A stretch of 64,000 nt of DNA from Limisalsivibrio acetivorans. Its GTDB lineage: Bacteria; Chrysiogenota; Deferribacteres; Deferribacterales; Geovibrionaceae. Each line of letters begins with the position of its first letter. Positions within the stretch are counted from its first letter, which is position 1. The notes beneath the pieces were generated by a model, which made no database searches, had not been told where the DNA came from, and saw nothing but the letters and a program-made list of their open reading frames with translations. A program made the position numbers and the translations under genes. Positions 25,030 to 42,450 of this stretch are shown one piece after another. The stretch lies in contig NZ_ATWF01000001.1 in assembly GCF_000421105.1 (NCBI RefSeq), forward strand, positions 53,987 through 117,986, given 5' to 3'.

Positions 25030-25567
25030 AGAGCCCTCTCATTCGTAATGGTAACAGTCCGGGGGGAGGGTTGCGTGGAAAAGTGGAACAAATATTTGTG
25101 AAATTGGCTCAGACCCTTAAGCGGTGGTACGCAGTTTCTTCTGTAATATCTGGGAGGCAGCAAGAAACATTCGTATCACTCTTTGCTGGAAGCTTGGGGT
25201 GGGTTCTAATAATTGTGCTGAAACTCAGGAGAAGTGGTGGTGGGTATAAGATCTTTCATGAACTACTCCAAAGGATTAGTATTAGGTTGCAATCATCATG
25301 ACTGATTACAACAGTTAAGGACAATAAAAAAGTTATTGGTAGTTGCCAATAATGTATTGTAATTAATATGAACCTATTAATCTGTATTAGAATATCCAAT
25401 AGATAGGGAAATATAATAGTAATAGCTCTCAGGAGGGGGTTCCCTCCTAGTCTGGGCGGTGCACTGGCACAAAAACTGGCACAATTTGACGATTTTTCGT
25501 AAGCAATGGCTTTTTTCAAATAAAAAAAGGCGAGCCAAGTGACTCGCCTTGCTAGCTTATTTATTAA
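25030..25567. other. non-coding stretch between chrA and tRNA-Arg
   Basis: No convincing gene is seen; a 76-codon frame at 25071-25301 has no ribosome site or family signal. A short direct repeat ACTGGCACAA occurs twice near 25460-25485. The tRNA terminator lies at 25522-25550. Confidence 0.5.
25522..25550 (-). terminator. rho-independent terminator of the tRNA-Arg gene
   Basis: A perfect 8-bp stem (25527-25534 with 25543-25550) is followed on the minus strand by a T-run (25522-25528). It lies 18 bases past the tRNA end. Confidence 0.85.
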
Positions 25568-25641
25568 CGCCCCCGGCACGATTCGAACGTGCGACCTTTG
25601 GATTAGGAATCCACTACTCTATCCTCCTGAGCTACGGGGGC
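25568..25641 (-). tRNA. tRNA-Arg (anticodon CCT)
   Basis: The minus strand folds into a complete cloverleaf: acceptor GCCCCCG/CGGGGGC, D arm with AGCTCAG, anticodon loop TTCCTAA giving CCT, and T arm GTTCGAATC. The discriminator is G and CCA is not encoded. It reads the AGG arginine codon. Confidence 0.96.
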
Positions 25642-25651
25642 GTGAACGAAT

Positions 25652-25963: not shown

Positions 25964-26752
25964 ATGGCAGATATAATAACCTTCGCAAACAAAAAGGGGG
26001 GTAGCGGTAAAACCTCCACCGTCTTGAATGTGGGAGCTGTTCTCGGAAGCAAAGGGAACAGGGTGCTTCTTGTCGACTTGGATCCCCAGGCTCATCTCTC
26101 CTATTGGTCGGGCGTAAACACCTACGATACATATAAAAACATCTACAGTGTAATCCACGGTGACTACAGCTCGTCGGAAGCTGTCACCACAACTGAGCAC
26201 GGACTCTACGACATAATCCCCGCCTCCACCCATTTCTCACACAAGGATCTTAAACAGATTATAGACGGCAGGCAGGTTGAGGGAAAGCTGGCTAAAGCAT
26301 TGATAGATGTGAAGGATAAGTATGATATTATACTTATAGACACTCCGCCCACAGTTGCCGTGCTCACGCTGAACGCCCTTGTGGCATCCAGACATGTGCT
26401 TATACCGGTACTTCTCAACTTCCTTGCCATAGAAGGGCTTGCACAGCTCGCCCAGAACATATACAGGATAAACATGGCCCATAATCCTGATCTCAGGATA
26501 ATGGGCATAATCCCAAACCAGTACGACCTGCGGAGCAACCATGCGAGAAGGGTTGTAAGCGAATTGAATGAGAATTTCGGCGAGGATATGATATCCCCCC
26601 GTATACGTCATGACATCAAGGTCGCAGAAGCTCCAGAAGCGAGGCTCCCCATAAATTTATACGCGCCCAAGAGCCGCGGGGCTATGGACTTCAGTATTTT
26701 AGCCGATTATGTAATGGGTAAAATCAACGAGTCTGCGGGGGTGAAGACATGA
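25964..26752 (+). CDS. ParA family ATPase (chemosensory array positioning)
   Basis: This 262-residue ParA/MinD-type ATPase has the deviant Walker A KKGGSGKTS (K10-S18) and the switch motif ILIDTPPT. There is no adjacent parB and the gene lies within a chemosensory operon. ParA homologues in such settings (PpfA of Rhodobacter, ParC of Vibrio) distribute chemoreceptor clusters. The soluble receptor two genes downstream has a lysine/arginine-rich N-terminus, the usual form of a ParA-stimulating peptide. It overlaps the Hsp70-like gene by 4 bases. Confidence 0.88.
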   Translation: MADIITFANKKGGSGKTSTVLNVGAVLGSKGNRVLLVDLDPQAHLSYWSGVNTYDTYKNIYSVIHGDYSSSEAVTTTEHGLYDIIPASTHFSHKDLKQIIDGRQVEGKLAKALIDVKDKYDIILIDTPPTVAVLTLNALVASRHVLIPVLLNFLAIEGLAQLAQNIYRINMAHNPDLRIMGIIPNQYDLRSNHARRVVSELNENFGEDMISPRIRHDIKVAEAPEARLPINLYAPKSRGAMDFSILADYVMGKINESAGVKT

Positions 26753-28251
26753 GCCACTGTATCGGAATCGATTTCGGTACGAGCAATTCTATGATCGCTG
26801 TTTACAAGGAGCAGGGTGTCATAGATATCATAAGCTCCGACAGCGGCAAGCGTTTCCTTCCTTCCGTCGTGTACTTCAAGAAGGAAAACGAGGTTGTCAT
26901 AGGCGACAACGCCAAGAGCATGCAGCTTTTGGAGTCGGAGCAGACAATAGCAAACATAAAACGCTATCTGGGTACGGATAAGGAGTTTGAGCAGTTTGGG
27001 AATACCTACAAACCCGAAGAGCTTGCAGGGTTAATATTCAAAAAGCTGATGATGACATATCAGGACTACTCCGGCGAGGAGGATGCCTCGGCTGTTATAA
27101 CCGTTCCAGCTTATTTTGATCACTACCAGCGTGAGGCGGTCCGTTCTGCGGCGGAATATGCGGGTTTTAATGTACTGCGCCTTCTGAACGAGCCAACATC
27201 GGCGGCCTTATACTATAATAATATTGGCAAAAACACGGGTGAAACATGCCTTGTATTCGATCTTGGTGGCGGAACCCTTGATATAAGCATTATCGAAATG
27301 GACGTGGATTCCTGCAGTGTTATTTTGACCGGAGGCTCCACAGAGATAGGCGGCGTTGACTTTGACATAGCCGTTGCGGACTACTTTATCGAAAACTTCC
27401 GAAGTAAGCACGGCATTGACCTGAAATCCGATCCCATAGCCTATCAACAGCTACTTTTCCAGGCGGAGAAGGCGAAGGTTGAGCTTTCATCGCTGAACGA
27501 GGTTAACGTAGTTGTTCCCTACATAACCATATCCAAAGAGGGTCCGCTCCATTTTAAGGACAGTATAGATAGAGACACGTTCAGCAGGGTTACCGCTCCG
27601 ATTACGGCCAAGATTCGCACAATTATTGAAAAACTCCTCGAAAACGGAGAAATGGAAATAAAAGACATCGACCGTGTCCTCCCCGTAGGTGGAGCCTCCA
27701 GGATACATAGCGTTCGAGGGCTTATCTGGGATATGTTTAACGGAACGGTTAAGAAGGATATGAACCCCGAAGAGGCTGTTGCATGCGGTGCTGCTGTTAA
27801 TGCGGCAATGCTAAAAGGTGTTCTCAAAGATAAGACATTTAACGATGTTACTGCACATAATCTCGGAATCGAGGATGACAACGGCAATTTTCAAGCTATA
27901 CTTAATAGGAATGAGATCTACCCCGTTGAGTTCAGTATGGAGTTTACCACAGCCTCTGAGGACACCGAGCGTGTCAAGGTTCACATACTGCAGGATATGG
28001 CGAGATCCTCTTTAAATACAAGCGATTCTGTGTCTGAAAATCCGGAGCAGTTCGTAAGCCTTGGTGAGTTTGAGATAGAGACAAAAGCCTCTGAAGAGTC
28101 AGAGGAACCCACCATTGAGGTTACATTCAGTATAGACAATAGCGGGATAATCAGCGTGAACGCAGCGCATCTGAACAGCGGAAGCAAAGGGGATTTTACT
28201 CTCCGCATGACAATCAAAAATGAAAGCTTAAATAAGATCGGAATTTTTTAA
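26749..28251 (+). CDS. short Hsp70-like chaperone (HscC/DnaK-type)
   Basis: This 500-residue protein has a complete Hsp70 nucleotide-binding domain (about 1-365): [10 protein letters not shown] at residues 6-15, [12 protein letters not shown] and [10 protein letters not shown] beta substrate-binding domain follows (about 375-500), and the sequence stops before the helical lid, so it is about 140 residues shorter than DnaK. No dnaJ or grpE is nearby. It overlaps parA by 4 bases and precedes the receptor by 17 bases, so a role in folding, assembling or disassembling the receptor array or ParA complex is inferred. Confidence 0.88.
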
Positions 28252-28268
28252 TCCTTCGGAGGAAATTA

Positions 28269-30509
28269 ATGAAGAAACTGGCACGCCCTTCCAGCCTGGA
28301 GGGAAAGACAGGTATCGTTAGGAAAGAGGGGGAAGACCTCCAAAAGAAGCGTGAGGAGGCCAGAAAGAGTGCCGCCGAAAAGGCGAAGAGCAGAACTCTG
28401 GCGAAGCAGCAGGCTAATGCGGAGAGGCTGGCCACAGCGTCCGAAGAGATGGCCTCTGCCATTGAGCAGTCAAGCTCTGCGGCGGACCAGCTCAGCAACG
28501 CCATGGGGCAGGTAACCGTTGCCTCCGGTCAGGTCAGCTCAAGCTCGGAAAACATCAAGAACGACACTATAGTTCTAGAGGATGTGAGCAGTAAAGTTCT
28601 TGATACCTCTGCAGATTACGAAGAGGCGATCTCCCAGATGGGACAGAACGTTACCTTCACCGTTACCGCTGTCAGAGAGCTTCGTGAGAGTGTGGACAAC
28701 ACAACCAACAAGGTTGTTGAATCCACTGAGATTGTAGAACAGCTTAAAGAGAAGGCAGGCTCCATCGAGCAGATCGTTCAGGTTGTTAAGAAGATCGCCG
28801 ACCAGACGAACCTCCTTGCTCTCAACGCCGCCATCGAAGCGGCCAGAGCTGGTGAACACGGCAAGGGATTCGCCGTTGTGGCGGATGAGGTAAGAACGCT
28901 GGCCGAGGTTTCCGACGGTGCCGCTAAGAATATTAAAGACGTCATTGATTCATCCCTTGAGCAGGTAAAAACCGTTGTGAGCAAGGTGGACGGTTTCACG
29001 AAGCTATCCCAAACAAACCTGTTTAAAGCGGATTTCATAAGCAACCAGTGCAACATAATCAACGACGCCACAAAGGTTATGGTGCGTGAAGTTAATACGA
29101 TCAAGAAGGACTCCAACAAGATCAGTGAAGAGGCGAAGAAGTCCCTTGATATAGTGAACCGCCTCGCCTCTGCCACAGAGCAGAACGCCACAGCCTCCGA
29201 GGAAGTGAGCAAGTTCACCGATGAGCAGTCAAAGGCTTTCAACGAGCTTACCTCCGCCGCCCAGGAGATTGCAGAGATGGCTGATGACCTTAAAACCTCT
29301 ACGGATATGGCGAAATCCTCCGAAGAGGTTGCCGCCGCCGCAGAGGAGCTCTCTGCAACAGTTGAGCAGTTGAATGCATCTGCGGATGAGATCCTGAAAG
29401 CGATAGACCAGATAGATACCGGAACCGATGAGATGTTCCATGAACTCGGCGACATCAAAAAAGAGTTCGCCACTATGAAGCAGATGCTCGAAGAGGGTAA
29501 AGGGAGCTGGGAGATCATCCGTGAAGAGGGTGACAAGATCGATGAAGGTCTTGAGGAGATCAAGGCCCTTGATCATATCGTTTTCATCAACCAGCTTGAA
29601 GAGGCCATCAACAACCAGACCAAGTTTGAGGGCGTTCTAGACCCCACAAAATGCTCCTTCGGTTCCTGGTACGAAACATACAAGCCCCACGATCATGAAG
29701 AGGAAGAGGCCTATAACGCCATACGTGAACCCCACAACCATGTGCATGTAGGTGCGGCAGAGATAGTCCGCCTCATGGAAGAGGGCAAGTATCAGGAAGC
29801 AAGGGATGTCTACAAAGAAAAGGTTATGGAGGGTGTGAAGGGATTTAAAAAGAACTTCAAACACTTCCATCAGGGTATAGAGCTTGTGGTTAAGGGATTT
29901 GTACGCACCATAGATAACCTCAAGGACATAAGCAATGAGGTGAAGGCTCTCAGCAAGTCCTTTGCAAGCATAAGAAAGATCGTAGATACCATCAATAATG
30001 TAGCCATACAGACAAACATGCTCGCCGTTAACGGCAGCATAGAAGCGGCCCGTTCAGGCGAGTTTGGCAGGGGCTTCTCCGTTGTTGCCTCTGATATCCG
30101 CTCCCTCGCTAATGAATCGGGGGATAATGCGGACAGGATGAAAGACATCCTCGAGGAAATGTATGAGCAGATCAACGGATTCCAGGATGAGCTCAGCGAG
30201 ATAACCGCCCTAATCAGGGTGCAGATCGAGAAGTCCGAGCTTGCTGTTACCAACCTTATTTCCATGGTCAAGATCCGTGGACGGGCTGGTGAGCTGAGGG
30301 AGGAGTCCGAGAAATACTTCGACGAGGGAATCGTTAAAGTCCGCAAGGTGAACGAGGCGTGCGATGAGGGACTTGAGGTTGCCGATAAGCTCAAGAAGCT
30401 TACCGATGAAGCCAAGATCGCTGCCGACGAGCAGGTAAGGGGACTTAACGAGATCTCCGCCGCATCCGAAGAGGTTGCCTCACTCGCAGACGAAATGCAG
30501 AACTACTGA
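28269..30509 (+). CDS. soluble chemoreceptor with two MCP signalling tips and a CZB domain
   Basis: This 746-residue protein has no membrane helix. It begins with a basic segment (K2, K3, R6, K13, R18, K19), then a first MCP signalling hairpin with tip [15 protein letters not shown] near residue 178. A second coiled region follows, then a CZB zinc-binding domain (about 445-545; [20 protein letters not shown]), and a second, divergent MCP tip [15 protein letters not shown] near residue 580. Two tips in one chain are rare. CZB domains sense zinc or oxidants such as hypochlorous acid. It is placed between the Hsp70-like protein and the triple CheW and is the obvious receptor of the system. Confidence 0.85.
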
Positions 30510-30539
30510 GCCGGAAGGCTATCCTAAGGAGGTCGGCTC

Positions 30540-32069
30540 ATGGCAGAAAGCATTGAGAAGCTAACAGAGAGCGAAGAAACCAAATACGTGTCGTTTTCAG
30601 TGGGTTCCGAATCCTTTGGCATCCCCATAGATGAAGTTCGTCGAATCATCAGGATGCCAAGGGTTACAAGGGTTCCCAAAACCCCTGACTTTATCCTTGG
30701 CATCAGCAACCAGCGGGGGAGTGTTCTTCCGATTATTGACCTCTCCCTGCGCCTCGGTTATGGAAAGCCCTGCAATGTTACCGATGAGGCTAGGGTTATT
30801 GTGCTTGAAAAATCGGGCACGATGACGGGTTTTGTCGTGGAATCGGTGAGCGAGGTTCGAGGCGTTGAGAAACAGAATACAGAGAACTTCCCCGAGATGC
30901 TCGATGCCGGCATAGACGAACGCTTTATTTCCGGACTCCTCAAGATGACCAACGGCGGTGAGAGCAGGCTTATTCAGGTTCTCAACACCGATGAGGTCAT
31001 AAATATTAACGAGCTTCGCAAAAACCTCAAGGAGAGCGGCGGCCAGAGCGCCGGAAGAGGGGGTGTTTTTGAGGAAGAGAACGATGGTGATGATGAGAGA
31101 CGCTTCATAAGTTTCCAGATCGGAATCCAGGAATACGCAGTTGAGATACACATGATAAATGAGATTATTCGTGTGCCCGATTACGTTACTGTGCCCGGCG
31201 TTGCGGATTACGTCATAGGGATATTCTCGCTCAGGGATTCGGTAAACCCTCTTATATCACTCCACAGTAAGTTCGGACGAAGCCTGCCGGATGTTAACGA
31301 AGACACCAGGGTTGTCATTGTTGACATTGAGGATACCAAGATAGCCTTTATGGCGGATAAGGTAAGCGAGGTTATAAGTGTTCCTGAGAGTCAGATAGAG
31401 CCACCTCCCCGTGTCTTCACCGATGGGAAAGAGTCCGAGATAAGCTCTGTTATCAAAGGGGAGAGCGGCGACAGGCTTGTGCTGATCCTCGATACCGGAA
31501 ATATCCTAGCAGACCAGGAGCTGGCCGCCCTCAGGCAGCTTGCCGAGAAGGGTGAGGAAAAACTGGAGGTGCAGGAGATGGATGAAGAAATAATTAGTGA
31601 TGAAAAACAGATAGTAACCTTTAACATAGAAGAGGAGGAGTACGGTATTTACATCGAAAAGGTGCAGGAGATTAACCGCTTCACCAATGTAACCCGTGTT
31701 CCCAAGACCCCTCCGTTTGTGGAGGGTATTATCAATCTCAGAGGAGATGTTATTCCACTGATAGATTTGAGAAAGAGGTTCGATCTTGAGCCGAAGGAAA
31801 GGGACGAGTTCACAAGGGTTATCATCGTGAATCTTGATTCCGTAAAGGTCGGTTTTGTTGTGGACTATGTGGACGAGGTTCTGCGTGTGAGCGAATCGAG
31901 CATTGATAACGTTCCTGCGGTTCTTTCCTCCACAGTGGACAACCAGTTCCTTGATGGTGTTGTGAACTATAAGGCTAAGGATACAGAGCGCATGATAATG
32001 CTTCTCTCTGTTGATGACCTCTTCTCCAAAGCGGAGAAGAAGAAGCTGGAGAACCTCAAGGACGATTGA
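30540..32069 (+). CDS. cheW: triple CheW-domain coupling protein
   Basis: This 509-residue protein is a tandem of three CheW domains, at about 10-150, 180-340 and 355-505. Each shows the core: VSFSVGSESFGIPIDEVRRI, FISFQIGIQEYAVEIHMI and VTFNIEEEEYGIYIEKVQEI. Domains 1 and 3 carry the family GI.N.RG motif, but domain 2 reads GIFSLRDSV and may bind differently. CheW couples receptors to CheA; three joined domains could scaffold several receptor or CheA contacts at once. It lies 30 bases after the receptor and 16 before cheB. Confidence 0.9.
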   Translation: MAESIEKLTESEETKYVSFSVGSESFGIPIDEVRRIIRMPRVTRVPKTPDFILGISNQRGSVLPIIDLSLRLGYGKPCNVTDEARVIVLEKSGTMTGFVVESVSEVRGVEKQNTENFPEMLDAGIDERFISGLLKMTNGGESRLIQVLNTDEVININELRKNLKESGGQSAGRGGVFEEENDGDDERRFISFQIGIQEYAVEIHMINEIIRVPDYVTVPGVADYVIGIFSLRDSVNPLISLHSKFGRSLPDVNEDTRVVIVDIEDTKIAFMADKVSEVISVPESQIEPPPRVFTDGKESEISSVIKGESGDRLVLILDTGNILADQELAALRQLAEKGEEKLEVQEMDEEIISDEKQIVTFNIEEEEYGIYIEKVQEINRFTNVTRVPKTPPFVEGIINLRGDVIPLIDLRKRFDLEPKERDEFTRVIIVNLDSVKVGFVVDYVDEVLRVSESSIDNVPAVLSSTVDNQFLDGVVNYKAKDTERMIMLLSVDDLFSKAEKKKLENLKDD

Positions 32070-32085
32070 TAACGGATAATATATT

Positions 32086-33153
32086 ATGAGCCTTAGAGTA
32101 CTGATTGCGGATGATTCTGCGCTTATGCGCAAAAAGATCAGGGAGATGATCGATGCCGAGACCGGAATGGAGGTTGTCGGCACAGCGAGGGATGGTGAGG
32201 ACGCCGTTATAAAGGCGAGAGACATCCGTCCCGATGTCATCACTATGGATATTAACATGCCCCGCATGGACGGCCTTGCGGCGCTTTCCGTCATAGTTGA
32301 GGAGGAGATCTGCCCTGTAATCATGCTCAGCTCCTTGACCCAGGAAGGTGCGGAGACGACCTTTGAAGCCATGGAACTTGGCGCCTTTGACTTTGTTTCA
32401 AAGCCAGGCGGCACCATCTCCGTGAATATCGAAGAGGTTCGCAAGGACCTGATCAGAAAACTGAAAGCTGCCGGCAGAACCGGCTATAACAAGATAAAGA
32501 GGAGTGTCCAAAAGCCGCAGAAGGTTAAAGAGGCTACGGACAGGATAGAAACGGAAAAGATGGTATGCGGGGAGGAGTTCTACGGCGTTGGCATAGGCAT
32601 TTCAACGGGCGGCCCGAAAACCATCTTTGATGTTTTGCCGAACCTCAACCCGGATTCGAAGGCGTCATTTTTTCTGGTTCAGCATATGCCGCCTACATTT
32701 ACATCCACCTTCGCCAAAAGGCTGAATGAATACTGCACGATCGAAGTTAAGGAGTGCGAGGCGGGTGAGATTGTACGTCCGGGGGTATGCTATCTCGGTA
32801 AAGGGGGGAGTCATATGACCCTCTATAAAAAGCACAACGGGTGCATGACCGTTAGGCTTAATAAAAGACCGGAGCACAATTTCATGCCCAGCGTTGATAT
32901 CATGCTGGAATCGGTTCTCAGCTGTTTCAATGGTAGAACCATCGGCATTATCATGACTGGAATGGGTGACGACGGTGCTGATTCCATGGTTAAGATTAAA
33001 CGCTCTGGAGGCTATACCATCGCCGAGTCCGATGAGACCTGTGTTGTTTTCGGTATGCCAAAGGAAGCCATAGACAGGGGGGGAGCAGATATTGTCCTCC
33101 CCAGCTATAAGATAGCCGATGAGATAACCAAGAGAATAAGGTACGGATGGTAG
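32086..33153 (+). CDS. cheB: CheB protein-glutamate methylesterase
   Basis: This 355-residue response regulator has an N-terminal receiver (phospho-acceptor D55 in TMDINMP, K in SKPGG), a linker and a methylesterase domain. The catalytic triad is S173 (STGG), H200 (QHMPP) and D296 (GMGDDG). It removes methyl groups from receptor glutamates, opposing CheR encoded three genes downstream. All motifs are intact. Confidence 0.95.
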   Translation: MSLRVLIADDSALMRKKIREMIDAETGMEVVGTARDGEDAVIKARDIRPDVITMDINMPRMDGLAALSVIVEEEICPVIMLSSLTQEGAETTFEAMELGAFDFVSKPGGTISVNIEEVRKDLIRKLKAAGRTGYNKIKRSVQKPQKVKEATDRIETEKMVCGEEFYGVGIGISTGGPKTIFDVLPNLNPDSKASFFLVQHMPPTFTSTFAKRLNEYCTIEVKECEAGEIVRPGVCYLGKGGSHMTLYKKHNGCMTVRLNKRPEHNFMPSVDIMLESVLSCFNGRTIGIIMTGMGDDGADSMVKIKRSGGYTIAESDETCVVFGMPKEAIDRGGADIVLPSYKIADEITKRIRYGW

Positions 33154-33156
33154 AAT

Positions 33157-33447
33157 ATGGATGTTAAGGTACTTAAAACGAAGGTGAAAATAGTTTTCCC
33201 GGAGGAATCCGAAAACTTTATGGCCATAGATATGCTTGATAAGCTGGAGGATGCAGATTTCAGTGAAAGAAGCGCAGAGATAGACCTCTCAAAGGTACAG
33301 ACCTTTGATACATCCTTTGTGAATATCCTCTGTTCTGTGGTTAATTCTGCAAAGGATGCCGGAGCGAACTACACTGTGAAAGAACCGGCTGATGAAGTTA
33401 AGAATAAGCTTAAACTTTATGGGATAGAGCTTGGAGGTACAGCTTGA
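33157..33447 (+). CDS. STAS-domain protein
   Basis: This 96-residue single STAS domain carries the central DLSKVQTFDTSF segment, where S53 is at the site phosphorylated in anti-anti-sigma factors. STAS proteins of this size appear in some chemosensory operons and could be regulated by phosphorylation or act as a structural partner. The next gene starts at a TTG overlapping its stop, so the two are translationally coupled. Confidence 0.82.
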   Translation: MDVKVLKTKVKIVFPEESENFMAIDMLDKLEDADFSERSAEIDLSKVQTFDTSFVNILCSVVNSAKDAGANYTVKEPADEVKNKLKLYGIELGGTA

Positions 33448-33806
33448 AGAGAATACTTGTAGTAGACGATGCAATCACCATGCGCCAGCTCGTGGCCGCA
33501 ACACTTAAGTCCGCCGGATATGATGTTGTGGATGCCAAGGACGGCGTGGATGCCCTCAACAAGCTCGGGCAAGGTCGTTTTAATCTTATAGTCTCGGATC
33601 TTAACATGCCCAATATGGACGGGATCACCCTGATAAAAGAGGTTAAGAAGAATCCCAGACATAAGTTTACACCCATAATCATGCTCACCACCGAATCCCA
33701 GTCCTCTAAGAAGGAGGAGGGGAGACAGGCGGGTGCGAAGGCCTGGATTGTAAAACCCTTTAAGCCGGCGGATCTTCTTAACGTTGTTAAAAAGATAGTA
33801 CCCTGA
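33444..33806 (+). CDS. cheY: CheY-like single-domain response regulator
   Basis: This 120-residue receiver has acidic D8/D9, phospho-acceptor D52 (VSDLNMP), T in MLTTES and K in IVKPF. The start is a TTG that overlaps the stop of the STAS gene, with GGAGG 8 bases upstream. It closely resembles flagellar CheY of the MCP/CheA pathway and is one of two single-domain CheYs in the operon. Confidence 0.92.
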   Translation: MKRILVVDDAITMRQLVAATLKSAGYDVVDAKDGVDALNKLGQGRFNLIVSDLNMPNMDGITLIKEVKKNPRHKFTPIIMLTTESQSSKKEEGRQAGAKAWIVKPFKPADLLNVVKKIVP

Positions 33807-33817
33807 AGAGGTGTTTA

Positions 33818-34879
33818 GTGGATATTGAAAGCATACGCAAATCCCTTTACCATGAGGATGAAACAGAGCGGCTCTACGCTGTGGAGGATGTTATATCCTT
33901 TAAGGCAGAGCAGCTTGTTCCAGATATAATCGACATGAACCTGCGTGAGGACAGCCGTATGGTTCGTGAGCTTATTGTTGAAGGGCTTAAGCTCATGGAC
34001 ATATCGGATCACTATGCAAAGGTTGCAGAGTATTTCGAAAGCTCCGATGCATTCATAAGAAACTGCGCCATAGAGATATTCGGCTCCAAAGGAGAGTCTG
34101 CAGTACCCTTTCTCACCTCTATTATGGACCACTCGGATAAAGAGGTGCGCAAGCTTATCCTCGATTGCCTGGTAGCCACCAGCTCCAAGTATTCCATACC
34201 AGCATTGCGTGCTGCATTGAACGATAAAGCGCCTAACGTGCAGATAACGGCTGTGGAGTATCTGGGCAAAATCGAGGACAAGGAATCCCTCAGGGATATT
34301 GTAGAACTGTTTGCCTCTACAAATGAGCCTATGCTTAGGATATCCTGTATCGAAACCTTCGTTTTCCTCGGTGGTGCAGAAACCGTGGACAGGGTAATCG
34401 ATATACTCGGCGGAAGAAGTGTGGACGGGTTCTATAAGCCCTCCGTATTCCGCCTTGTGGCGGAGAAGGGTGCTGAGAAGCATCTTGATTTTCTGCTGTC
34501 ATTTCTTAACAATAAAAACACTCTCTTCTTTACAGAGATCGCGAACTCCATTCTGAAGATAATCTCGAGGGAGAACGTCTCTGAGCTTCCCGAGGAGAGT
34601 GTCAGCTTTATAATAGAGAGTGCCAGAAACCAGAACCTCTCCACCGACGAACGGATAACCTTCATGAGAATTATCAGTGTATTAGGAGCGGACGGCAAGG
34701 AAAAGATACTTGAGGAGCTTGCCTACGAGGATGACATGAACCTTATGCTCAGTTCTCTGGATGAACTTTCCGGTTCGAACCTTGAAAAGGCCCTTAAGAT
34801 AATAGATCGAAGGCTCAAGGTGGCCGAAGGTGACCTTAAGGATGAGCTTATCAATCTAAAAGAATATCTGGCGGAGTAG
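33818..34879 (+). CDS. HEAT-repeat protein of the chemosensory operon
   Basis: This 353-residue all-helical protein has tandem HEAT-type repeats, clearest over residues 5-170 (LYHEDETERLYAVEDV, VRELIVEGLKLM, VRKLILDCLVAT, VQITAVEYLGKI). The GTG start at 33818 is used; AAGAGG lies upstream. HEAT solenoids act as protein-binding scaffolds. Between cheY and cheR it probably binds an operon component, but which one cannot be told. Confidence 0.82.
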   Translation: MDIESIRKSLYHEDETERLYAVEDVISFKAEQLVPDIIDMNLREDSRMVRELIVEGLKLMDISDHYAKVAEYFESSDAFIRNCAIEIFGSKGESAVPFLTSIMDHSDKEVRKLILDCLVATSSKYSIPALRAALNDKAPNVQITAVEYLGKIEDKESLRDIVELFASTNEPMLRISCIETFVFLGGAETVDRVIDILGGRSVDGFYKPSVFRLVAEKGAEKHLDFLLSFLNNKNTLFFTEIANSILKIISRENVSELPEESVSFIIESARNQNLSTDERITFMRIISVLGADGKEKILEELAYEDDMNLMLSSLDELSGSNLEKALKIIDRRLKVAEGDLKDELINLKEYLAE

Positions 34880-34882
34880 CGG

Positions 34883-35716
34883 ATGTTTCTTGTAACCTTA
34901 GAGGATTATAAAGACCTTACAGCTTTTATTTATAAAAAGTCGGGCATAAAGTTTGAGGACAAGAAGCGCTATTTCATCAATAAACGGATAGAAAAGCGCA
35001 TAAACGTTCTCAAGCTTGAATCTGCTCGTGATTACCTGCGGTACCTTAAATTCAAGGACAAGGAAGGTGAGGAGTTCCAGGAGCTTATGAATCTCCTTAC
35101 CGTGAATGAGACCTACTTCTTCCGCGAGTTCAGCACACTTGAGGTATTTGCCGAGTTCTGCCTGCAGGAGATTGCCGATAAGAAGGCCGCAGAAGGGGAC
35201 AGAACAATAAGGATCTGGTCTGCAGGCTGTTCCTCTGGTGAAGAGCCCTACACCCTCGCCATAATAACAAGGGAAATGCTCGACAGCCCTGATGACTGGA
35301 ATATCGAGGTTGTCGCCACAGATATAGACCAGACTGCCCTCGATAAGGGGAGAGAGGCGAGATACGATGACCGCAGCGTAAAGGATGTCCCCGATGAGTA
35401 TTATGCGAAGTACTTCGATTATGTGAACGGTTTTCATATGCCTAAGAAAGAAGTTCGCCAAATGGTGAAGTTTGAGCATATGAACCTGATGGACAGGCTT
35501 ACAATGCGTAAGAAGAGAGGGTTCAACTTCATCTTCTGTCGCAACGTGTTAATTTATTTCGATGAAATCTCGAGGAAGCAGGTTGTGGACCATTACTACA
35601 TCGCCCTTAACAAGGGGGGCTACATCTTCCTCGGTCACAGTGAATCTGTAGGCAGAATAACCACTGCGTTCAGCATTAAGAAGTTCGGCCGCAATGTTGT
35701 GTATTATAAGGGGTAA
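34883..35716 (+). CDS. cheR: CheR chemoreceptor methyltransferase
   Basis: This 277-residue protein has an N-terminal helical CheR domain and a SAM-binding catalytic domain with IWSAGCSSGEEPYTLA, the FIFCRNVLIYF motif and the closing LGHSES segment. It methylates receptor glutamates using S-adenosylmethionine. It lies 3 bases after the HEAT gene and 3 before the second cheY. Confidence 0.95.
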   Translation: MFLVTLEDYKDLTAFIYKKSGIKFEDKKRYFINKRIEKRINVLKLESARDYLRYLKFKDKEGEEFQELMNLLTVNETYFFREFSTLEVFAEFCLQEIADKKAAEGDRTIRIWSAGCSSGEEPYTLAIITREMLDSPDDWNIEVVATDIDQTALDKGREARYDDRSVKDVPDEYYAKYFDYVNGFHMPKKEVRQMVKFEHMNLMDRLTMRKKRGFNFIFCRNVLIYFDEISRKQVVDHYYIALNKGGYIFLGHSESVGRITTAFSIKKFGRNVVYYKG

Positions 35717-35719
35717 GAA

Positions 35720-36085
35720 ATGGCTTTTAAGGTACTTATAATTGATGATTCGGATATGGTAAGACACTTCCATGCCAATATATTGAAGTCCGCCGGATTC
35801 GATGCGGATCAGGCTATTGATGGTATGGATGCTTTGGAGAAAACCACACAGAACAGCTATTCTCTACTCCTTTGCGATCTCAATATGCCCCGCATGGACG
35901 GTGTTACGTTTATCAAGGAGTTTCGTAAAACAGGCAAGGAGACACCTGTTATCATAATAACAACCCAGGAGGAGGCGGAGAACAGGAAGCTTGGTTACAC
36001 CTCCGGCGCAAACCTCTATATAACAAAACCGGTTAAACCGGATGAGCTTATAATAAACATCAAGATGCTGCTCGGCATTACATAG
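35720..36085 (+). CDS. cheY: CheY-like response regulator (second copy)
   Basis: This 121-residue receiver has D9/D10, phospho-acceptor D53 (CDLNMP), T in ITTQE and K in TKPV. It is divergent from the CheY at 33444, so the two probably have different outputs or one serves as a phosphate sink for CheA. It directly precedes cheA. Confidence 0.92.
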   Translation: MAFKVLIIDDSDMVRHFHANILKSAGFDADQAIDGMDALEKTTQNSYSLLLCDLNMPRMDGVTFIKEFRKTGKETPVIIITTQEEAENRKLGYTSGANLYITKPVKPDELIINIKMLLGIT

Positions 36086-36099
36086 ATACGGAGAAGGTT

Positions 36100-39048
36100 A
36101 TGGTTGAACTTGATATGGAGAAGTTCCGGCGCTCATTTCTGGATGAGGCAACGGAGCTTCTGGAACAGGTTAATGAAGATATACTGAAAGCGGAATCGGA
36201 TAGTGATCCTGAGCTGGTCAACTCGATGTTCCGCTCCATCCATACCATTAAAGGAAGCGCTGCGGGTTTTGGATTTGACCATATCTCCGAGTTCAGCCAT
36301 CATCTTGAAACACTGCTCGATTCGCTCAGAAACGGTGAACTGCAGCTCACCTCCGAGCTTGTGGACACCATCCTCAAAGCTGTAGACGGCCTTTTTGAGA
36401 TGGTGGATGCCTCAAAGGAGGGGAAGGAGCATGGCGTTGATACGGAAACGCTGATTAAGGAGCTTGCTGTTATGAAAGGTGAGGCCGTTCCGGAGGAGCC
36501 TTCATCAACAGACACTCCCACCGAGGCAGAGCAGTCATCTGAACGCTATATACCTAACGATGAAAAGAGAGAGGAACTGCGCTCAAAATTCAACGGAGAA
36601 GGTAAGGTTTACCGTGTTGAATTAAAGTTCACTTCCGAGATGCTCGAAAACGGATACGACCCCCTCCCTTTCCTGCAGAACATAAAGAACAGTTCAAGCG
36701 TTTATCTTTCCTCCTGTGACATTTCCAGAGTGCCTAAAATAGATGAGGTTAACCCCTTTGAGATATATCTTGAACCTGAGATTTATCTCATCTCTGAACT
36801 TTCTGCTGAAGACTTGGCGGACTTTGCCTTTGATCCCGAAGCTGTGGATGTGTATGAGGTATCCCTTAGCGCTCCTCCGGCGGATATGCCCGTGGAGAAA
36901 ACACCTCCGGAGCCGGCAATGGAAGAGAAGCATCTAGAGGATGAGCCCTATGCCGTTGATCAGGACGAAGAGGTCATAACCCTCGAAGGGGTGGATACGG
37001 CGATGCTTTCCGAGCTGCGTTCGGGCGTTGAGGACTACTTCGAATCTATAGAGTCCCTGATACTCCGTCTGGAAAAGGGTGACGGTGAGATCGGTTCCGG
37101 AATCGATGATCTTTTCCGTGTTTTCCATACAATCAAGGGGGATTGCGGCTATGTGGGCCTGACCTTCATGGAGAAGTATTCCCATCTCCTTGAGAGTATT
37201 CTGGATGATATAAGAAGCGGCAAGGTTCTTTTTGATAAGAAGGCGGCGGATCTTATACTCACTGTCATAACCGACATAAACGAGTTCCTCAAAAAGCTGG
37301 AAAGTGAGGGTCAGGCTCCTGTGCCAAAGACCTATAAGATGCTCCAGGAGCTCAATACCAACATCGATGAGATGAAGGATTCTGTAACCGTTCTCAACGA
37401 TGAGGTTAAGATCTTCCTTACCCAGGTGGATCAGTTTATGGAGATTATGAACATGGCCGCCTCCGGCGACACCGTGGACAAGAAGCAACTTCTACGTGGT
37501 GCGGCGGGTCTTAAGAATGCCTCTCGCTTTGTAGGTTTCACCGAGATAAACGAAACCGCCACAAGGCTTGAAACGGCCATCAAGAACGGTGATTCCCATG
37601 GGGACATTCTCAACGATATCCACGAAAGTATCGAAACGCTGAAGTCACCCCCAAAGAAGCTGGGAGAGCTTCTTGTGGAGAGTGGAAAGATTTCCGAGGA
37701 TGACATAAAATACGCCCTGAGCAAGCAGAAGAAGATCGGTGACATCCTTGTGGAAGAGGGGCGTCTCGAAAAGGAAGACCTTGATAATGCCCTGAAAAGA
37801 CAGGAGGTTATGAAGGCGGTATCCGATACTGTAAAGGACAAGATACCCGAAAAGGCTCAGCCCCAGACCCAGGGCGTTGAATCTGTTCCACAGCTGATGA
37901 AGGTGGACCAGGAGAAGATCGACAAGTTCACAAACACTATCGGCGAACTGGTTGTTGCAAAGAACGCTAATGAGTACCTTATTCACAACCTTGCCAAGGA
38001 GTATGGTCTGCCCACAAACCTTGTTAAGGATCTTAAGGATACAGCTAATCTTATTTCCCGCATAGCACAGGATCTGCAGAGGGATATTCTCTCGCTCCGC
38101 ATGGTTCCCATTAAGCAGATATTCCATAAGTTCCCCAGAATCGTGAGGGATATATCAAGGAAGCAGGATAAGCAGATAGACCTTAAGATAATCGGCGAGG
38201 ACACGGAGATTGACAAAAAGGTTGCCGATCTCCTAAGCGATCCCCTTGTGCACCTTGTTCGCAACTCCTGCGACCACGGCGTTGAGAATGTGGAAGAGCG
38301 TAAGAGTGCAGGCAAGACCCCTATGGGTACGGTTATACTCAAGGCCTATCAGGAAGGGAGCTTTGTCTATATCGAGGTTATCGATGATGGTAAGGGGATC
38401 AATACTGCGAAGGTTCTCGAAAAGGCTATCAGCAGAGGGCTTGTCAGCGAGAGTGACCAGCTCGATGATAAAGAGATAAAGCAGCTCATCCTTGAGCCCG
38501 GTTTCTCCACGGCGGAAAAGGTAACCGATGTATCCGGTCGCGGGGTTGGGATGGACGTTGTTAAAACGAGTGTTCTTGATCTTGGCGGAATGGTGGATAT
38601 ACAGTCAAACCTCGGTGACGGGACAAGGATTATCCTCAAAATACCTGTTACCATAGGCGTTTCCACTGCTCTCCTTGTTGAGCTGCGCGATGAGACCTAC
38701 GCCATACCAATCGAAAACGTAGCGGAGACTATAAAGCTTGAGCGTGAAAGGGTTAAGGACCTGCATTACGGTATGGCCATACATTATCGTGGTATGGTTC
38801 TCCCCGTTTATACCATGAGTGAGCTCTTGGACAATGATCCGGATGAGCTTAAAGAAGAGGTGAGCATTGTTATAACGAACACCGAAAAGGGTAAGGTGGG
38901 TATCGTTGTAGATGAGCTCGTCAACCGTATCGACATAGCTATTAAACCAGTTCCCGAATACTTCTCACATCTCTCATATGTCGGAGGAATAACTATCCTG
39001 GGTGACGGTCAGGCAGTGCTTGTATTAAATACGAATAGACTTATCTGA
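36100..39048 (+). CDS. cheA: CheA histidine kinase with multiple Hpt domains
   Basis: This 982-residue kinase has Hpt1 (about 1-115) with H48 in SIHTIKGSAAG, a linker and Hpt2 (about 300-410) with H343 in VFHTIKGDCGY. A third Hpt-like segment (about 430-520) has Ala469 where the His should be. A 50-residue stretch resembles the GspE/PilB N-terminal LGELLVESG...IGDILVEEG repeats. The dimerisation helices, ATPase domain (VRNSCDHGVENVE, DDGKGI, GRGVGMD) and C-terminal CheW domain follow. Two live phosphorylation sites fit the two CheYs plus CheB. A CheY-binding P2 domain may lie in 165-290. Confidence 0.94.
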   Translation: MVELDMEKFRRSFLDEATELLEQVNEDILKAESDSDPELVNSMFRSIHTIKGSAAGFGFDHISEFSHHLETLLDSLRNGELQLTSELVDTILKAVDGLFEMVDASKEGKEHGVDTETLIKELAVMKGEAVPEEPSSTDTPTEAEQSSERYIPNDEKREELRSKFNGEGKVYRVELKFTSEMLENGYDPLPFLQNIKNSSSVYLSSCDISRVPKIDEVNPFEIYLEPEIYLISELSAEDLADFAFDPEAVDVYEVSLSAPPADMPVEKTPPEPAMEEKHLEDEPYAVDQDEEVITLEGVDTAMLSELRSGVEDYFESIESLILRLEKGDGEIGSGIDDLFRVFHTIKGDCGYVGLTFMEKYSHLLESILDDIRSGKVLFDKKAADLILTVITDINEFLKKLESEGQAPVPKTYKMLQELNTNIDEMKDSVTVLNDEVKIFLTQVDQFMEIMNMAASGDTVDKKQLLRGAAGLKNASRFVGFTEINETATRLETAIKNGDSHGDILNDIHESIETLKSPPKKLGELLVESGKISEDDIKYALSKQKKIGDILVEEGRLEKEDLDNALKRQEVMKAVSDTVKDKIPEKAQPQTQGVESVPQLMKVDQEKIDKFTNTIGELVVAKNANEYLIHNLAKEYGLPTNLVKDLKDTANLISRIAQDLQRDILSLRMVPIKQIFHKFPRIVRDISRKQDKQIDLKIIGEDTEIDKKVADLLSDPLVHLVRNSCDHGVENVEERKSAGKTPMGTVILKAYQEGSFVYIEVIDDGKGINTAKVLEKAISRGLVSESDQLDDKEIKQLILEPGFSTAEKVTDVSGRGVGMDVVKTSVLDLGGMVDIQSNLGDGTRIILKIPVTIGVSTALLVELRDETYAIPIENVAETIKLERERVKDLHYGMAIHYRGMVLPVYTMSELLDNDPDELKEEVSIVITNTEKGKVGIVVDELVNRIDIAIKPVPEYFSHLSYVGGITILGDGQAVLVLNTNRLI

Positions 39049-39058
39049 CGGAGATGGA

Positions 39059-39412
39059 ATGAAAATATTTATTATTGATGACAACAGCCTGCACCTCAAG
39101 ATGTGCAGGTTCATCCTTGAGAAGATGAAGCATGATGTTCATTTATTCTCAAGTTTGGGTGAATTGAAGGCATATAGCGGCTCCGAGCCGGATATCTTTT
39201 TCATAGATTACAGGCTCGGTGTGGACGAAACCGGTATTGATGTGCTTAAGTATGTTAAGGAAACGCTGGGATGGACGAAAACAAGGTGCGTCGCTTTTAC
39301 AGCTGATGTATCCGAAGAGGCCCAGCTGAAGAGGAATGATTTCTCAGGGGTTATACTGAAGCCCATAACTGAGAAGATGCTTAGCGAAGCGGTGGAAAAA
39401 TACAGCAGATGA
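39059..39412 (+). CDS. receiver-domain protein
   Basis: This 117-residue receiver has acidic DD at residues 7-8, phospho-acceptor Asp in FIDYRLG, AFTAD and LKPI. It is more divergent than the two CheYs. Its stop overlaps the start of the next gene (ATGA), so it is coupled to the receptor-like/CheZ-like protein, a likely partner. Confidence 0.85.
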   Translation: MKIFIIDDNSLHLKMCRFILEKMKHDVHLFSSLGELKAYSGSEPDIFFIDYRLGVDETGIDVLKYVKETLGWTKTRCVAFTADVSEEAQLKRNDFSGVILKPITEKMLSEAVEKYSR

Positions 39413-40881
39413 TCGAACTGCAGAACCTGAAAGAGAAGCTTACCGATTACTTCGTCGAGATTGTGGATATTATCAACAAACTTGTCGATCTGCGCAGTGA
39501 GAACTTTGCCAGTATGCTTGAGATAAACTCATACCTTGAGGACTCCGCCCACAGGTTCATGAACAACACTGCTGAGATAACAGGAAACATCTCAAGCGCT
39601 CTTGATAAAAAGGTGGACAACCTTGATGTGGAAGCGATGAAGGATGAAATCGTTGAGTCAACCAACACCTTCCTCCGCATAACAGACGACTTGGAGCTAC
39701 TTTCATACAACACTATCTGCCGCACCATGTCCCTTGGTAACAAGGGCGCAACCATCGCCCATATAAGCAAGGAGATCAAGAAAAACTCCAACAGCGCAAA
39801 GGATCTTCTTGGTGATATCTCCGAGACATTTGGGTCAATTTATGAAGACTTCAAGAAAATATCCGAAACCTTTGCAGAGAACAGTGTAAAGGTTGATACA
39901 CTGACAGTTGACGAGGACGATGATGGTGAATCGCTTGAGGTAAGCTCGGATATCTCAAGACTTATAGAGTTCAGCCAGTTCCACGATATTATCGTACAGG
40001 AGATCGAGGCGATTGAGAGAGCCTTTGCAGAGGCGGAGGAGGATGATAACTTCTCTCTTGGAAAACGTTACGGCGTTTTCGAGATTGCATGTCAACGTAT
40101 TTCCCAGGTTCGTGAAAGAACCCTTAACACCTTTGAAGAGATAAAAAGTGTAACTTCCGAGTTTCTTTATCATATAAATACGGATATCCAGAATATTGTC
40201 AGCCGGGCGAATATCGTTCGTATGGAGTTCGATAAGGCAAGGGAATACTCCGAAAGCATTGAGACCATTGTAGAAGATCTTGTGGAGATGATTGATAGCA
40301 CCGATTCACAGATACGTGACGCTAACCAGGGTATCCACCATCTCAAAAAGTTTGGCAAATCATTCAGAAACCTTGTTGTGATAACCTCTGTGGAGGTCTC
40401 ACGCATTGGCGATGAAAGCCTGCAGAGTGTTGTTGTTTCCATGAATGACACAGAGCAGGTTCTGAGCCAGCTGGTATCAAAGTTAGCTAGCAGTCTTAAG
40501 GTCTGGGAGGAGCTTAAGGAGGATTTTGGCGATGTTCTCACCTCTGCTGAGGGTGACATTAAGAAACTGAGGAATCTGCATAGAGAAGGGGAAATTGACG
40601 ACCTGGCAGTGAAGGCTGATAAGCTTGATGACGAACTTTCATACTTTCGCAGCCGCTTCTCAGGAAGCGATTTTATGGAGCACTTGCAAGAGGCTATCTC
40701 CAGTGTAAACTTACTTTTTGATGACCTTGATAAAACCATTGAAAGAAACTTTGATGAATACAAAACAGCATTAAGCAGTGCCTCAATGAATTCAGCGGAG
40801 TTTGAAGAGGGGCGGCAGTCTGCGGAAATAATCGATATAATAGCTGATTCCAGCGATCATTCCTCAGTAGAGTTCTTTTAA
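39409..40881 (+). CDS. chemoreceptor-like coiled-coil protein with CheZ-like D-x3-Q motif
   Basis: This 490-residue helical cytoplasmic protein has no membrane segment. Two stretches look like eroded MCP tips (LLSYNTICRTMSLGN and FRNLVVITSVEVSRIG). Between them, QFHDIIVQEIEAIERAF contains D193-x3-Q197, the arrangement of the catalytic Asp/Gln of the CheY-phosphate phosphatase CheZ. I infer a phosphatase or phosphate-sink regulator built on a receptor-like scaffold, acting on the receiver encoded just upstream. No exact family is recognised; the CheZ link rests on a short motif and context. Confidence 0.6.
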   Translation: MIELQNLKEKLTDYFVEIVDIINKLVDLRSENFASMLEINSYLEDSAHRFMNNTAEITGNISSALDKKVDNLDVEAMKDEIVESTNTFLRITDDLELLSYNTICRTMSLGNKGATIAHISKEIKKNSNSAKDLLGDISETFGSIYEDFKKISETFAENSVKVDTLTVDEDDDGESLEVSSDISRLIEFSQFHDIIVQEIEAIERAFAEAEEDDNFSLGKRYGVFEIACQRISQVRERTLNTFEEIKSVTSEFLYHINTDIQNIVSRANIVRMEFDKAREYSESIETIVEDLVEMIDSTDSQIRDANQGIHHLKKFGKSFRNLVVITSVEVSRIGDESLQSVVVSMNDTEQVLSQLVSKLASSLKVWEELKEDFGDVLTSAEGDIKKLRNLHREGEIDDLAVKADKLDDELSYFRSRFSGSDFMEHLQEAISSVNLLFDDLDKTIERNFDEYKTALSSASMNSAEFEEGRQSAEIIDIIADSSDHSSVEFF

Positions 40882-40954: not shown

Positions 40955-42166
40955 ATGTTAAAGGTTAAAACCAAAGATCTTAAACTTGGTGATAAGGTTC
41001 TTAAGCTTGACCGCAACTGGCTTCAAACATCAATTCTTAAACATAAGTTCATAATTAAAGAGCAGGGTGTTATCGACAGGCTCATAAGAGAAGGTGTTGA
41101 GCATGTCTATATTGAAAAGCGTACAGCAGAAGAGCAGGCCGCCCAGGCCATACTTGCCGGGGATGAGGAAGCTATTCTTGAGGTGCAGGAGGAGATCGTC
41201 AAGGACAACTATGTGGACCTTGACAACTTCGACAGTGCCGTCGGTCTTTATAAGGAATCCGTTCGTATTGTTAAGCATGTCATGTCCGATATCCGTGCAG
41301 GAAAGCTCTTTGACAAAGGTGCTTTAAACAACGTTGCCGACAAAATTGTTGATATAACGCTCAAAAGCCAAGGTGTTCTTTCCAGCGTATCCAAGCTTAA
41401 GCAGTTCGATGAATATACCTTTCAGCACAGCATGAACGTAAGTGTTTTCGCCACATCGCTGGGCAGGCATATGGGACTTGATGAGGAAGAGCTAAGGGCT
41501 TTATCCTCCGGTGGACTCATGCACGATGTTGGCAAAATGATGGTTCCCCCTGATATACTGAACAAGCCCGGAAAGCTCACCGATGAGGAATTTGTCACAA
41601 TGAAGAAGCACGTGGAGTACGGATACGAATACCTCAAAAAGAATGGTGTGGACGAGCGGATGCTTGCCCTTGCCCATGAACACCACGAACGCTTCGACGG
41701 CTCCGGTTATCCCAGAAAACTAAAGGACGGCGAGATCAGCATGCATGGGAAGATTGGTGCGGTTGTGGATATATACGATGCAATAACCAGCGACAGGGTA
41801 TACCACAAAGGGATGGAGCCCGCACAGGCATTGAAGCTGATGTTCAAATGGGCGGACTCACATATAAACAAAAAGGTTTTCGAGTTCTTCGTTACCAACA
41901 TCGGCATATACCCGGTGGGAACCCTAGTGCTGCTAAATACGAATGAGCTGGCAATGGTGGGAAGGGTGAACACACGAAAGCCCACCGAGCCGAATGTTAT
42001 CGTATTCAAGGACGGCAGAGGGAATGACAAAACACCTTTCATCGTTGACCTTGCAAAGCCTGTTGTTAATAAAAGGAAGATTGTCGGACCTGTTAATCCT
42101 GCTGAAATAATCGTCCCTGAAGCAATTTACAATGCTGTGGATAAGATGAACGCCCTCAATCCCTAG
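40955..42166 (+). CDS. HD-GYP c-di-GMP phosphodiesterase with N-terminal DUF3391
   Basis: This 403-residue cytoplasmic protein has an N-terminal DUF3391-like domain (about 1-110; LKLGDKVLKLDRNWL). A canonical HD-GYP domain follows, with H190/D191 (MHDVGK) and HHERFDGSGYP from residue 243, 53 residues later, which is the normal spacing. It hydrolyses c-di-GMP. It sits 73 bases after the chemosensory operon on the same strand and may be an output module or a separate unit. Confidence 0.9.
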   Translation: MLKVKTKDLKLGDKVLKLDRNWLQTSILKHKFIIKEQGVIDRLIREGVEHVYIEKRTAEEQAAQAILAGDEEAILEVQEEIVKDNYVDLDNFDSAVGLYKESVRIVKHVMSDIRAGKLFDKGALNNVADKIVDITLKSQGVLSSVSKLKQFDEYTFQHSMNVSVFATSLGRHMGLDEEELRALSSGGLMHDVGKMMVPPDILNKPGKLTDEEFVTMKKHVEYGYEYLKKNGVDERMLALAHEHHERFDGSGYPRKLKDGEISMHGKIGAVVDIYDAITSDRVYHKGMEPAQALKLMFKWADSHINKKVFEFFVTNIGIYPVGTLVLLNTNELAMVGRVNTRKPTEPNVIVFKDGRGNDKTPFIVDLAKPVVNKRKIVGPVNPAEIIVPEAIYNAVDKMNALNP

Positions 42167-42351: not shown

Positions 42352-42450
42352 ATAACAAGAGAGCTTCCAGCGGGCAGAAGCCCGCATAATCTAATCCCCT
42401 GTAGGTTCCATTTATAGAGTAGCAGGCCTTAACGGCCTGCTTCTTTTTTT
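42352..42450 (+). ncRNA. candidate small RNA (about 100 nt)
   Basis: The stretch has a GCGGGC-AGAA-GCCCGC hairpin (42370-42385) and ends in a strong terminator hairpin with T-run, preceded by promoter-like boxes. It could instead be the long 3' untranslated end of the HD-GYP mRNA. No known RNA family is recognised. Confidence 0.35.
42421..42450 (+). terminator. rho-independent terminator
   Basis: An AGCAGGCC/GGCCTGCT stem (42421-42428 with 42434-42441, TTAAC loop) is followed by CTTTTTTT. It ends either the HD-GYP mRNA or the candidate small RNA. Confidence 0.85.

Follow-up and report, generated by a model that had tools for sequence, protein, structure and literature searches.

The 13-gene operon at positions 25964-40881 of a DNA stretch from Limisalsivibrio acetivorans (the window; 64,000 nucleotides on contig 1 of a 2.97 Mb genome) almost certainly encodes a cytoplasmic chemosensory system of the F9 class, a rare known type. 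The operon is an F9 variant with a dedicated Hsp70, and the Hsp70 is its new element; F9 systems, HEAT-repeat proteins and ParA in this context are known. The best explanation for the whole, to which we assign a probability of roughly 0.55, is an F9 array that is positioned by ParA and has the Hsp70 as its own partner. A first-pass annotation of the window had described a nearly gap-free order of genes from ParA to the last gene, and genes, coordinates and domain profiles (Pfam and NCBIfam searches of the operon proteins) agree with it. All 13 genes are located on the + strand in the order and at the positions that it gave, three junctions overlap by 4 base pairs (bp), and the largest gap is 30 bp or less (Table 1). 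It missed the identity of the F9 class with its DosM receptor and CheW3 adaptor, as well as the MshEN-type motif in CheA and a receptor-tip-like hairpin in the last gene.

F9 systems are recognized by a soluble receptor with two signalling domains and an adaptor of three CheW domains (PMC9321776), and the assignment of the operon to this class is based on the presence of both hallmarks, a DosM-type receptor and CheW3. In Vibrio cholerae, the F9 system forms a purely cytoplasmic lattice of two baseplates, which is about 35 nm thick and spanned by DosM (PMC7534058). Both tips of the window's receptor align with F9 receptors of other phyla, and the protein is devoid of a membrane segment (best 19-residue Kyte-Doolittle mean 0.70). 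CheW3 shows 34-36% identity over its full length to CheW3 of other phyla, and the cluster contains its own CheA and CheY, as expected for a full rather than a partial F9 system. Cluster I of V. cholerae (DosM VC1403, CheW3 VC1402, CheA VC1397) shares the soluble receptor with two signalling domains, the triple CheW and a CheA of its own (PMC7534058, PMC9321776). In contrast to V. cholerae, the window adds ParA and Hsp70 at the front, a CZB domain in the receptor, a STAS-CheY pair, a candidate MshEN motif in CheA, a single-domain receiver (REC) and a final protein with receptor-tip and CheZ-like motifs.

Six proteobacterial plasmids carry CheW3, and five of them show the same core order as the window, DosM-CheW3-CheB-HEAT-CheR-CheY-CheA; the F9 locus on a Rhizobium plasmid is without HEAT. 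Because HEAT genes are found in most F9 loci of other phyla, including five of these six plasmids, the HEAT-repeat protein is a standard F9 component, and its earlier description as an unusual partner has to be dropped. The CZB domain is located between the receptor halves in the family members that were aligned, and is absent from the receptor of G011, a genome of another family, and from the aligned F9 receptors of other phyla. According to previous work, 98% of DosM proteins lack a sensory domain (PMC9321776), and CZB domains are reported to be zinc-based redox sensors (PMC13370339).

The conservation of the operon was analyzed in a set of 51 Deferribacterota genomes. The F9-type Hsp70 was detected in 12 of them, the same 12 that encode a full-length CheW3, and the other 39 lack the Hsp70. 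In each of the 12 loci it is the second gene, between ParA and DosM. The order of the operon is kept in 11 genomes besides that of L. acetivorans, which is far beyond chance, with identities of 29-88% per gene. The 13-gene order is present in 10 of the 11 other family members and also in G011 (locus L042), where the last two genes are inverted; G010, a second species of the same genus as G011, is without the system. In G019 (locus L149, G019:C10:72000-91900), a congener of G018, the same neighbour genes are found at the syntenic site, and the block from ParA to REC is absent in its entirety. This indicates that the block, including Hsp70 and ParA, was lost or gained as one. The last gene alone is kept in G019, encoding a protein of 481 amino acids with 53% identity to its counterpart in G018. 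Thus, Hsp70 and ParA accompany each other in 12 of 12 array genomes and are both missing together with the array in G019, which places the Hsp70 within the array module. A lack of both genes at this place in close relatives, which would have contradicted the first-pass reading, was not observed. A scan of genome contigs with ParA yielded one relative only. Outside the phylum, no Hsp70 gene was found in the cluster of any of 22 CheW3 loci, and the dedicated Hsp70 is the unexpected element of the operon. The CheW3 gene of locus L039 (G020) has one in-frame TAG in the matched stretch, which may reflect a late start or a gene broken in the assembly.

All 12 Hsp70 proteins end near residue 500 and lack the lid, and the Pfam match stops at position 496 of the 599 in the profile. 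They constitute a single clade (support 100/100), to which neither DnaK nor the f10 proteins described below belong, in a tree for which the program warns of long branches. With 415 of 648 bits and 406 of 823 bits, the scores stay under the NCBIfam cut-offs for DnaK. The protein shares the ATPase and β substrate domains with DnaK, and its best match in the PDB is a 509-residue construct of the Geobacillus kaustophilus protein (2v7y, 328 bits). It differs from DnaK by being naturally lid-less and by an altered linker and arch residue; in most orthologs the DnaJ-docking arginine is altered as well. For the comparison of individual positions, residue numbers and roles follow DnaK. All checked ATPase residues (D8, T11, K70, E171, D194, T199) are kept in the 12 proteins. 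The interdomain linker VLLLD is replaced by [KR]-x-F-x-D in all of them, with loss of its hydrophobic character, and P396, L397 and S398 are changed to Ser/Ala/Thr, His and Asn. The linker phenylalanine and the His-Asn pair are new invariant residues (12 of 12), and position 404 of the substrate arch is invariably Asp. R167, which docks DnaJ, is lost in eight of the 12 and retained in the window's own Hsp70. The AlphaFold2 model (mean predicted local distance difference test score, pLDDT, 76; predicted TM-score 0.81) fits the ATP-bound state of DnaK (4b9q; TM-score 0.82, root-mean-square deviation 4.2).

Since the ATPase residues are kept while the coupling and binding faces are altered, a partner of a single client is to be expected rather than a general chaperone. 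We therefore infer that the Hsp70 would serve a single client in an ATP-driven manner rather than act as a general, DnaJ-dependent chaperone. The proposal that the Hsp70 assembles or remodels the array is upheld as far as its dedicated membership is concerned; the absence of the lid and of a DnaK-type interdomain linker, together with the loss of the DnaJ-docking arginine in most orthologs, makes a remodelling chaperone of the canonical kind unlikely. These losses resemble decay, and could also mean that the protein is a degenerate DnaK paralogue that is carried along without a specific role in the array. This is very improbable, however, because every checked ATPase residue is kept, the new residues are invariant, two families have the gene at one fixed position of the operon, and mean identity within the clade is 71% in the ATPase domain and 60% in the β domain. 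In four genomes of one family (L078, L079, L104, L105), an ordinary hrcA-grpE-dnaK locus is located about 5-7 kb from the F9 cluster in divergent orientation.

Partitioning of the array by ParA is probable, judging from gene context and precedent, and the earlier suggestion of a cytoplasmic array that is distributed by ParA is still the best reading. The precedent is CheOp3 of Rhodobacter sphaeroides, a cluster for which we know of no Hsp70. There, the ParA homologue PpfA is encoded together with a soluble receptor, TlpT, and partitions the cytoplasmic array via the TlpT N-terminus (PMC3964821, PMC2829493). TlpT is a classical receptor of 567 amino acids, in contrast to the double-tip receptor of the window (PMC3964821). 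All 12 array genomes encode ParA. It is also part of the F9 cluster on two alphaproteobacterial plasmids and in four genomes of the phylum of G077, and ppfA homologues were reported in the che operons of 37% of 206 species (PMC2829493). ParA is therefore a recurrent and not an unusual component of che operons. In the ParA tree, which has moderate support and long branches, the clade of the window joins the alphaproteobacterial F9 ParA (93/94), apart from chromosomal ParA, whereas ParA from the F9 loci of the G077 phylum joins chromosomal ParA (87/92). This split suggests that ParA was probably recruited to F9 clusters more than once. Domain searches revealed no ParB-like gene among the 13 genes of the operon. 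The parA and hsp70 genes overlap by 4 bp (26749-26752), are adjacent in 12 of 12 loci and are both missing in G019, as would also be expected if they formed one partition module in which Hsp70 loads ParA onto the receptor tail or releases it from there. We regard this as improbable, because the F9 clusters with ParA in Alphaproteobacteria and in the G077 phylum have no Hsp70.

A separate lid-less Hsp70 of 495-499 amino acids was found in family f10 (G001, G002 and G003; loci L043, L044 and L045), which represents the other deep branch of the phylum. Here the gene is part of a flagellar che operon, with the order FliA-CheB-FliM-FliN-Hsp70-CheY-CheZ-CheA in L044 (Hsp70 at 4068-5567); L043 and L045 agree by gene lengths and matches. 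FliA, FliM and FliN were named from their sequences and not by family search. The f10 Hsp70 retains the hydrophobic linker and R167 and forms its own clade, so that a single chemosensory Hsp70 family comprising both groups was rejected; their separate origin is likely rather than certain in view of the long branches. Among the matches listed at E 1e-88 or better in 385 genomes, a sample of proteins similar to the query and not a census, the truly short Hsp70s are the three f10 and the 12 F9 proteins. An apparently short Hsp70 in G065 was discarded, because its frame is cut by the contig end.

The f10 operon, for which no cytoplasmic array is expected, allows a different view of the Hsp70, namely as a signalling element whose nucleotide state reads folding or energy stress and changes kinase output, similar to StkA upstream of Dif. 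In Myxococcus xanthus, StkA (540 amino acids) and SglK regulate exopolysaccharide through or near Dif, and these Hsp70 homologues are genetically tied to a chemosensory pathway (PMC4319316). Different from the gene in the window, stkA is located upstream of stkB and stkC, outside a che operon, and acts in Dif-dependent exopolysaccharide regulation. The degraded DnaJ-coupling features of the F9 Hsp70 would be compatible with signalling, but a direct link to CheA or CheY is missing, and the location beside ParA and DosM agrees better with assembly or positioning; we consider a signalling role unlikely. StkA and SglK were the only cases retrieved by a full-text literature search on Hsp70 and chemosensory operons, and no earlier description of a chemosensory operon with an Hsp70 was found, which is weak evidence as few subscription journals were covered. 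A broader view, which we advance tentatively, is that chemosensory systems repeatedly make use of lid-less Hsp70s with a specific client, which were recruited separately to the F9 array and to the f10 che operon. They might be ATP switches that assemble, split or gate lattices, and the F9 lattice might in addition read zinc or redox state via CZB and possibly cyclic di-GMP (c-di-GMP) via CheA.

For the F9 array with ParA and a dedicated Hsp70, we envisage that DosM receptors would stand as rods between two baseplates of CheA and CheW3, with a zinc or redox input at the CZB domain in the middle of the receptor. Nucleoid-bound ParA would position the lattice and share it out at division, and the basic N-terminal tail of DosM may activate the ParA ATPase. 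The Hsp70 may bind and release one fixed client, coupled to its own ATPase cycle and bypassing the usual cycle with DnaJ, and would in this way help to assemble, split or free the array. DosM, CheW3 and the complex of ParA with DosM are the most likely clients. For an action of the Hsp70 on array assembly, splitting or release the odds are about even. Several observations weigh against this explanation. What the sequences show directly is the gene content, the F9 hallmarks, the co-inheritance, the loss of lid and linker and the retained ATPase residues; array formation in this organism, the function of ParA and the client and action of the Hsp70 are predicted from these. F9 clusters elsewhere lack Hsp70, which is hence not needed for F9 arrays in general. 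Because both genes travel together, co-inheritance does not separate a role in array positioning from that of the Hsp70. The AlphaFold2 match to the ATP-bound state depends on a model from 12 sequences whose mean pLDDT is 76. The basic receptor tail is suggestive only, as F9 receptors that have no parA close by carry one too, and it did not serve as a marker of ParA use.

Table 1. Features of the F9 operon in the window.
Feature	Position	Strand	Evidence
ParA-family ATPase, deviant Walker A KGGSGKT	25964..26752	+	Pfam AAA_31, 157 bits
Hsp70, 500 amino acids, ATPase and β substrate domains, no α lid	26749..28251	+	Pfam HSP70, 404 bits
Hsp70 interdomain linker KTFND (VLLLD in DnaK)	27832..27846	+	residue comparison, 12 orthologs
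DosM-type soluble receptor, two signalling domains, 746 amino acids	28269..30509	+	two MCPsignal stretches, 213 bits
Basic N-terminal tail of receptor, candidate ParA-activating segment	28269..28403	+	net +7 over 45 residues
CZB zinc-binding domain between receptor halves	29574..29768	+	Pfam CZB, 49.7 bits
CheW3, three concatenated CheW domains	30540..32069	+	Pfam CheW, three matches
CheB	32086..33153	+	Pfam
STAS-domain protein	33157..33447	+	STAS_2, 29.5 bits; ortholog in 12 of 12 loci
CheY 1	33444..33806	+	Pfam
HEAT-repeat protein	33818..34879	+	Pfam; relatives in F9 loci of other phyla
CheR	34883..35716	+	Pfam
CheY 2	35720..36085	+	Pfam
CheA, three Hpt stretches, HxxKG kept in two	36100..39048	+	domain search
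Candidate MshEN-type c-di-GMP-binding repeat pair in CheA	37657..37803	+	NCBIfam NF053729, 46.7 bits (cut-off 38)
Single-domain receiver (REC)	39059..39412	+	domain search
Last gene, all-helical protein	39409..40881	+	no family match; hairpin and CheZ-like motif
Receptor-tip-like hairpin of last gene, residues 85-137	39661..39819	+	profile match to receptor tip; AlphaFold2 turn
SQFHDIxxQ motif of last gene, residues 189-197	39973..39999	+	S-Q-F-H-D-I and Q invariant in 12

The position of the phospho-acceptor in the STAS protein is occupied by S, T or V, and the SpoIIAA-type serine is not conserved, so that a SpoIIAA-like phospho-switch was rejected. The idea that STAS or HEAT provides a non-flagellar output was left unsupported, with no evidence in either direction. 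In CheA, the repeat pair of the window, of G011 and of G023 scores above the NCBIfam cut-off for MshE-related c-di-GMP binding, and that of G018, the fourth ortholog scanned, falls slightly short of it; all 12 orthologs show the pattern, and the 17 other F9 CheA proteins all lack it. MshEN domains contain two motifs of 24 residues with a 5-residue spacer, and fusions to CheA are known (PMC5013675). In the candidate the spacer is a single residue, most aligned sequences have lysine in place of the first arginine, and some relatives lack Leu21 of motif 1. Binding of c-di-GMP by the CheA insert is doubtful because of this spacer of 1 instead of 5 residues.

For the last gene, the description as CheZ-like is not supported by profiles, as Pfam and NCBIfam gave no match and the hhalign comparison with CheZ of G001-G003 was not significant; Foldseek found no match in the PDB at E 0.001. 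It holds solely for a motif, FHDIxxQ, which is invariant in 12 orthologs, contains the D-x-x-x-Q pattern of the CheZ catalytic site, is located in a helix of the AlphaFold2 model (189-208) and may be compared with FQDITHQ in CheZ of G001-G003. Residues 85-137 match the receptor tip with a z score of 5.9; none of 500 column shuffles did as well for tip 1, and one of 500 for tip 2. The same stretch is selected by hhalign with low probability, and the model places a turn at 107-110. A reasonable guess from these motifs is a phosphatase whose receptor-like tip anchors it in the baseplate. The finding that G019 keeps this protein and lacks the array points to an additional role in another system. 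The genome contains three CheA genes and a separate flagellar che cluster with a CheZ that is recognized by Pfam. A search for FliA-type promoters found none.

Downstream of the operon, an HD-GYP gene (40955-42166) follows after 73 bp with no terminator-like site in between, and a good terminator-like hairpin is located 3' of this gene at 42421-42441. The HD-GYP gene could thus be co-transcribed with the operon, and might provide a connection to c-di-GMP that is restricted to this species; it was rejected as part of the conserved module, since it is absent downstream of the operon in the relatives checked. An IS30-like transposase gene with HTH_38 and integrase core domains is found near the 3' end of the operon (42789-43754, - strand). 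Directly 5' of parA, and transcribed away from it, is a gene for tRNA-Arg(CCT) (25567-25642, - strand), as in three relatives (L032, L033 and L034). It is absent in two other genera, and G011 has tRNA-Pro instead; the tRNA gene is possibly an old insertion site.

The Hsp70 is of interest for the question of how large cytoplasmic lattices are built, split and inherited, because an Hsp70 that is inherited with ParA and the array genes is a defined candidate for the step in which arrays are assembled or split, and one that can be deleted. As its lid, linker and DnaJ contact were lost naturally, it may also help to find out which features an Hsp70 requires for work with a single client. Finally, the second, separate lid-less Hsp70 suggests that Hsp70 proteins and chemosensory systems are more widely connected, which agrees with the findings on StkA and SglK in Myxococcus.

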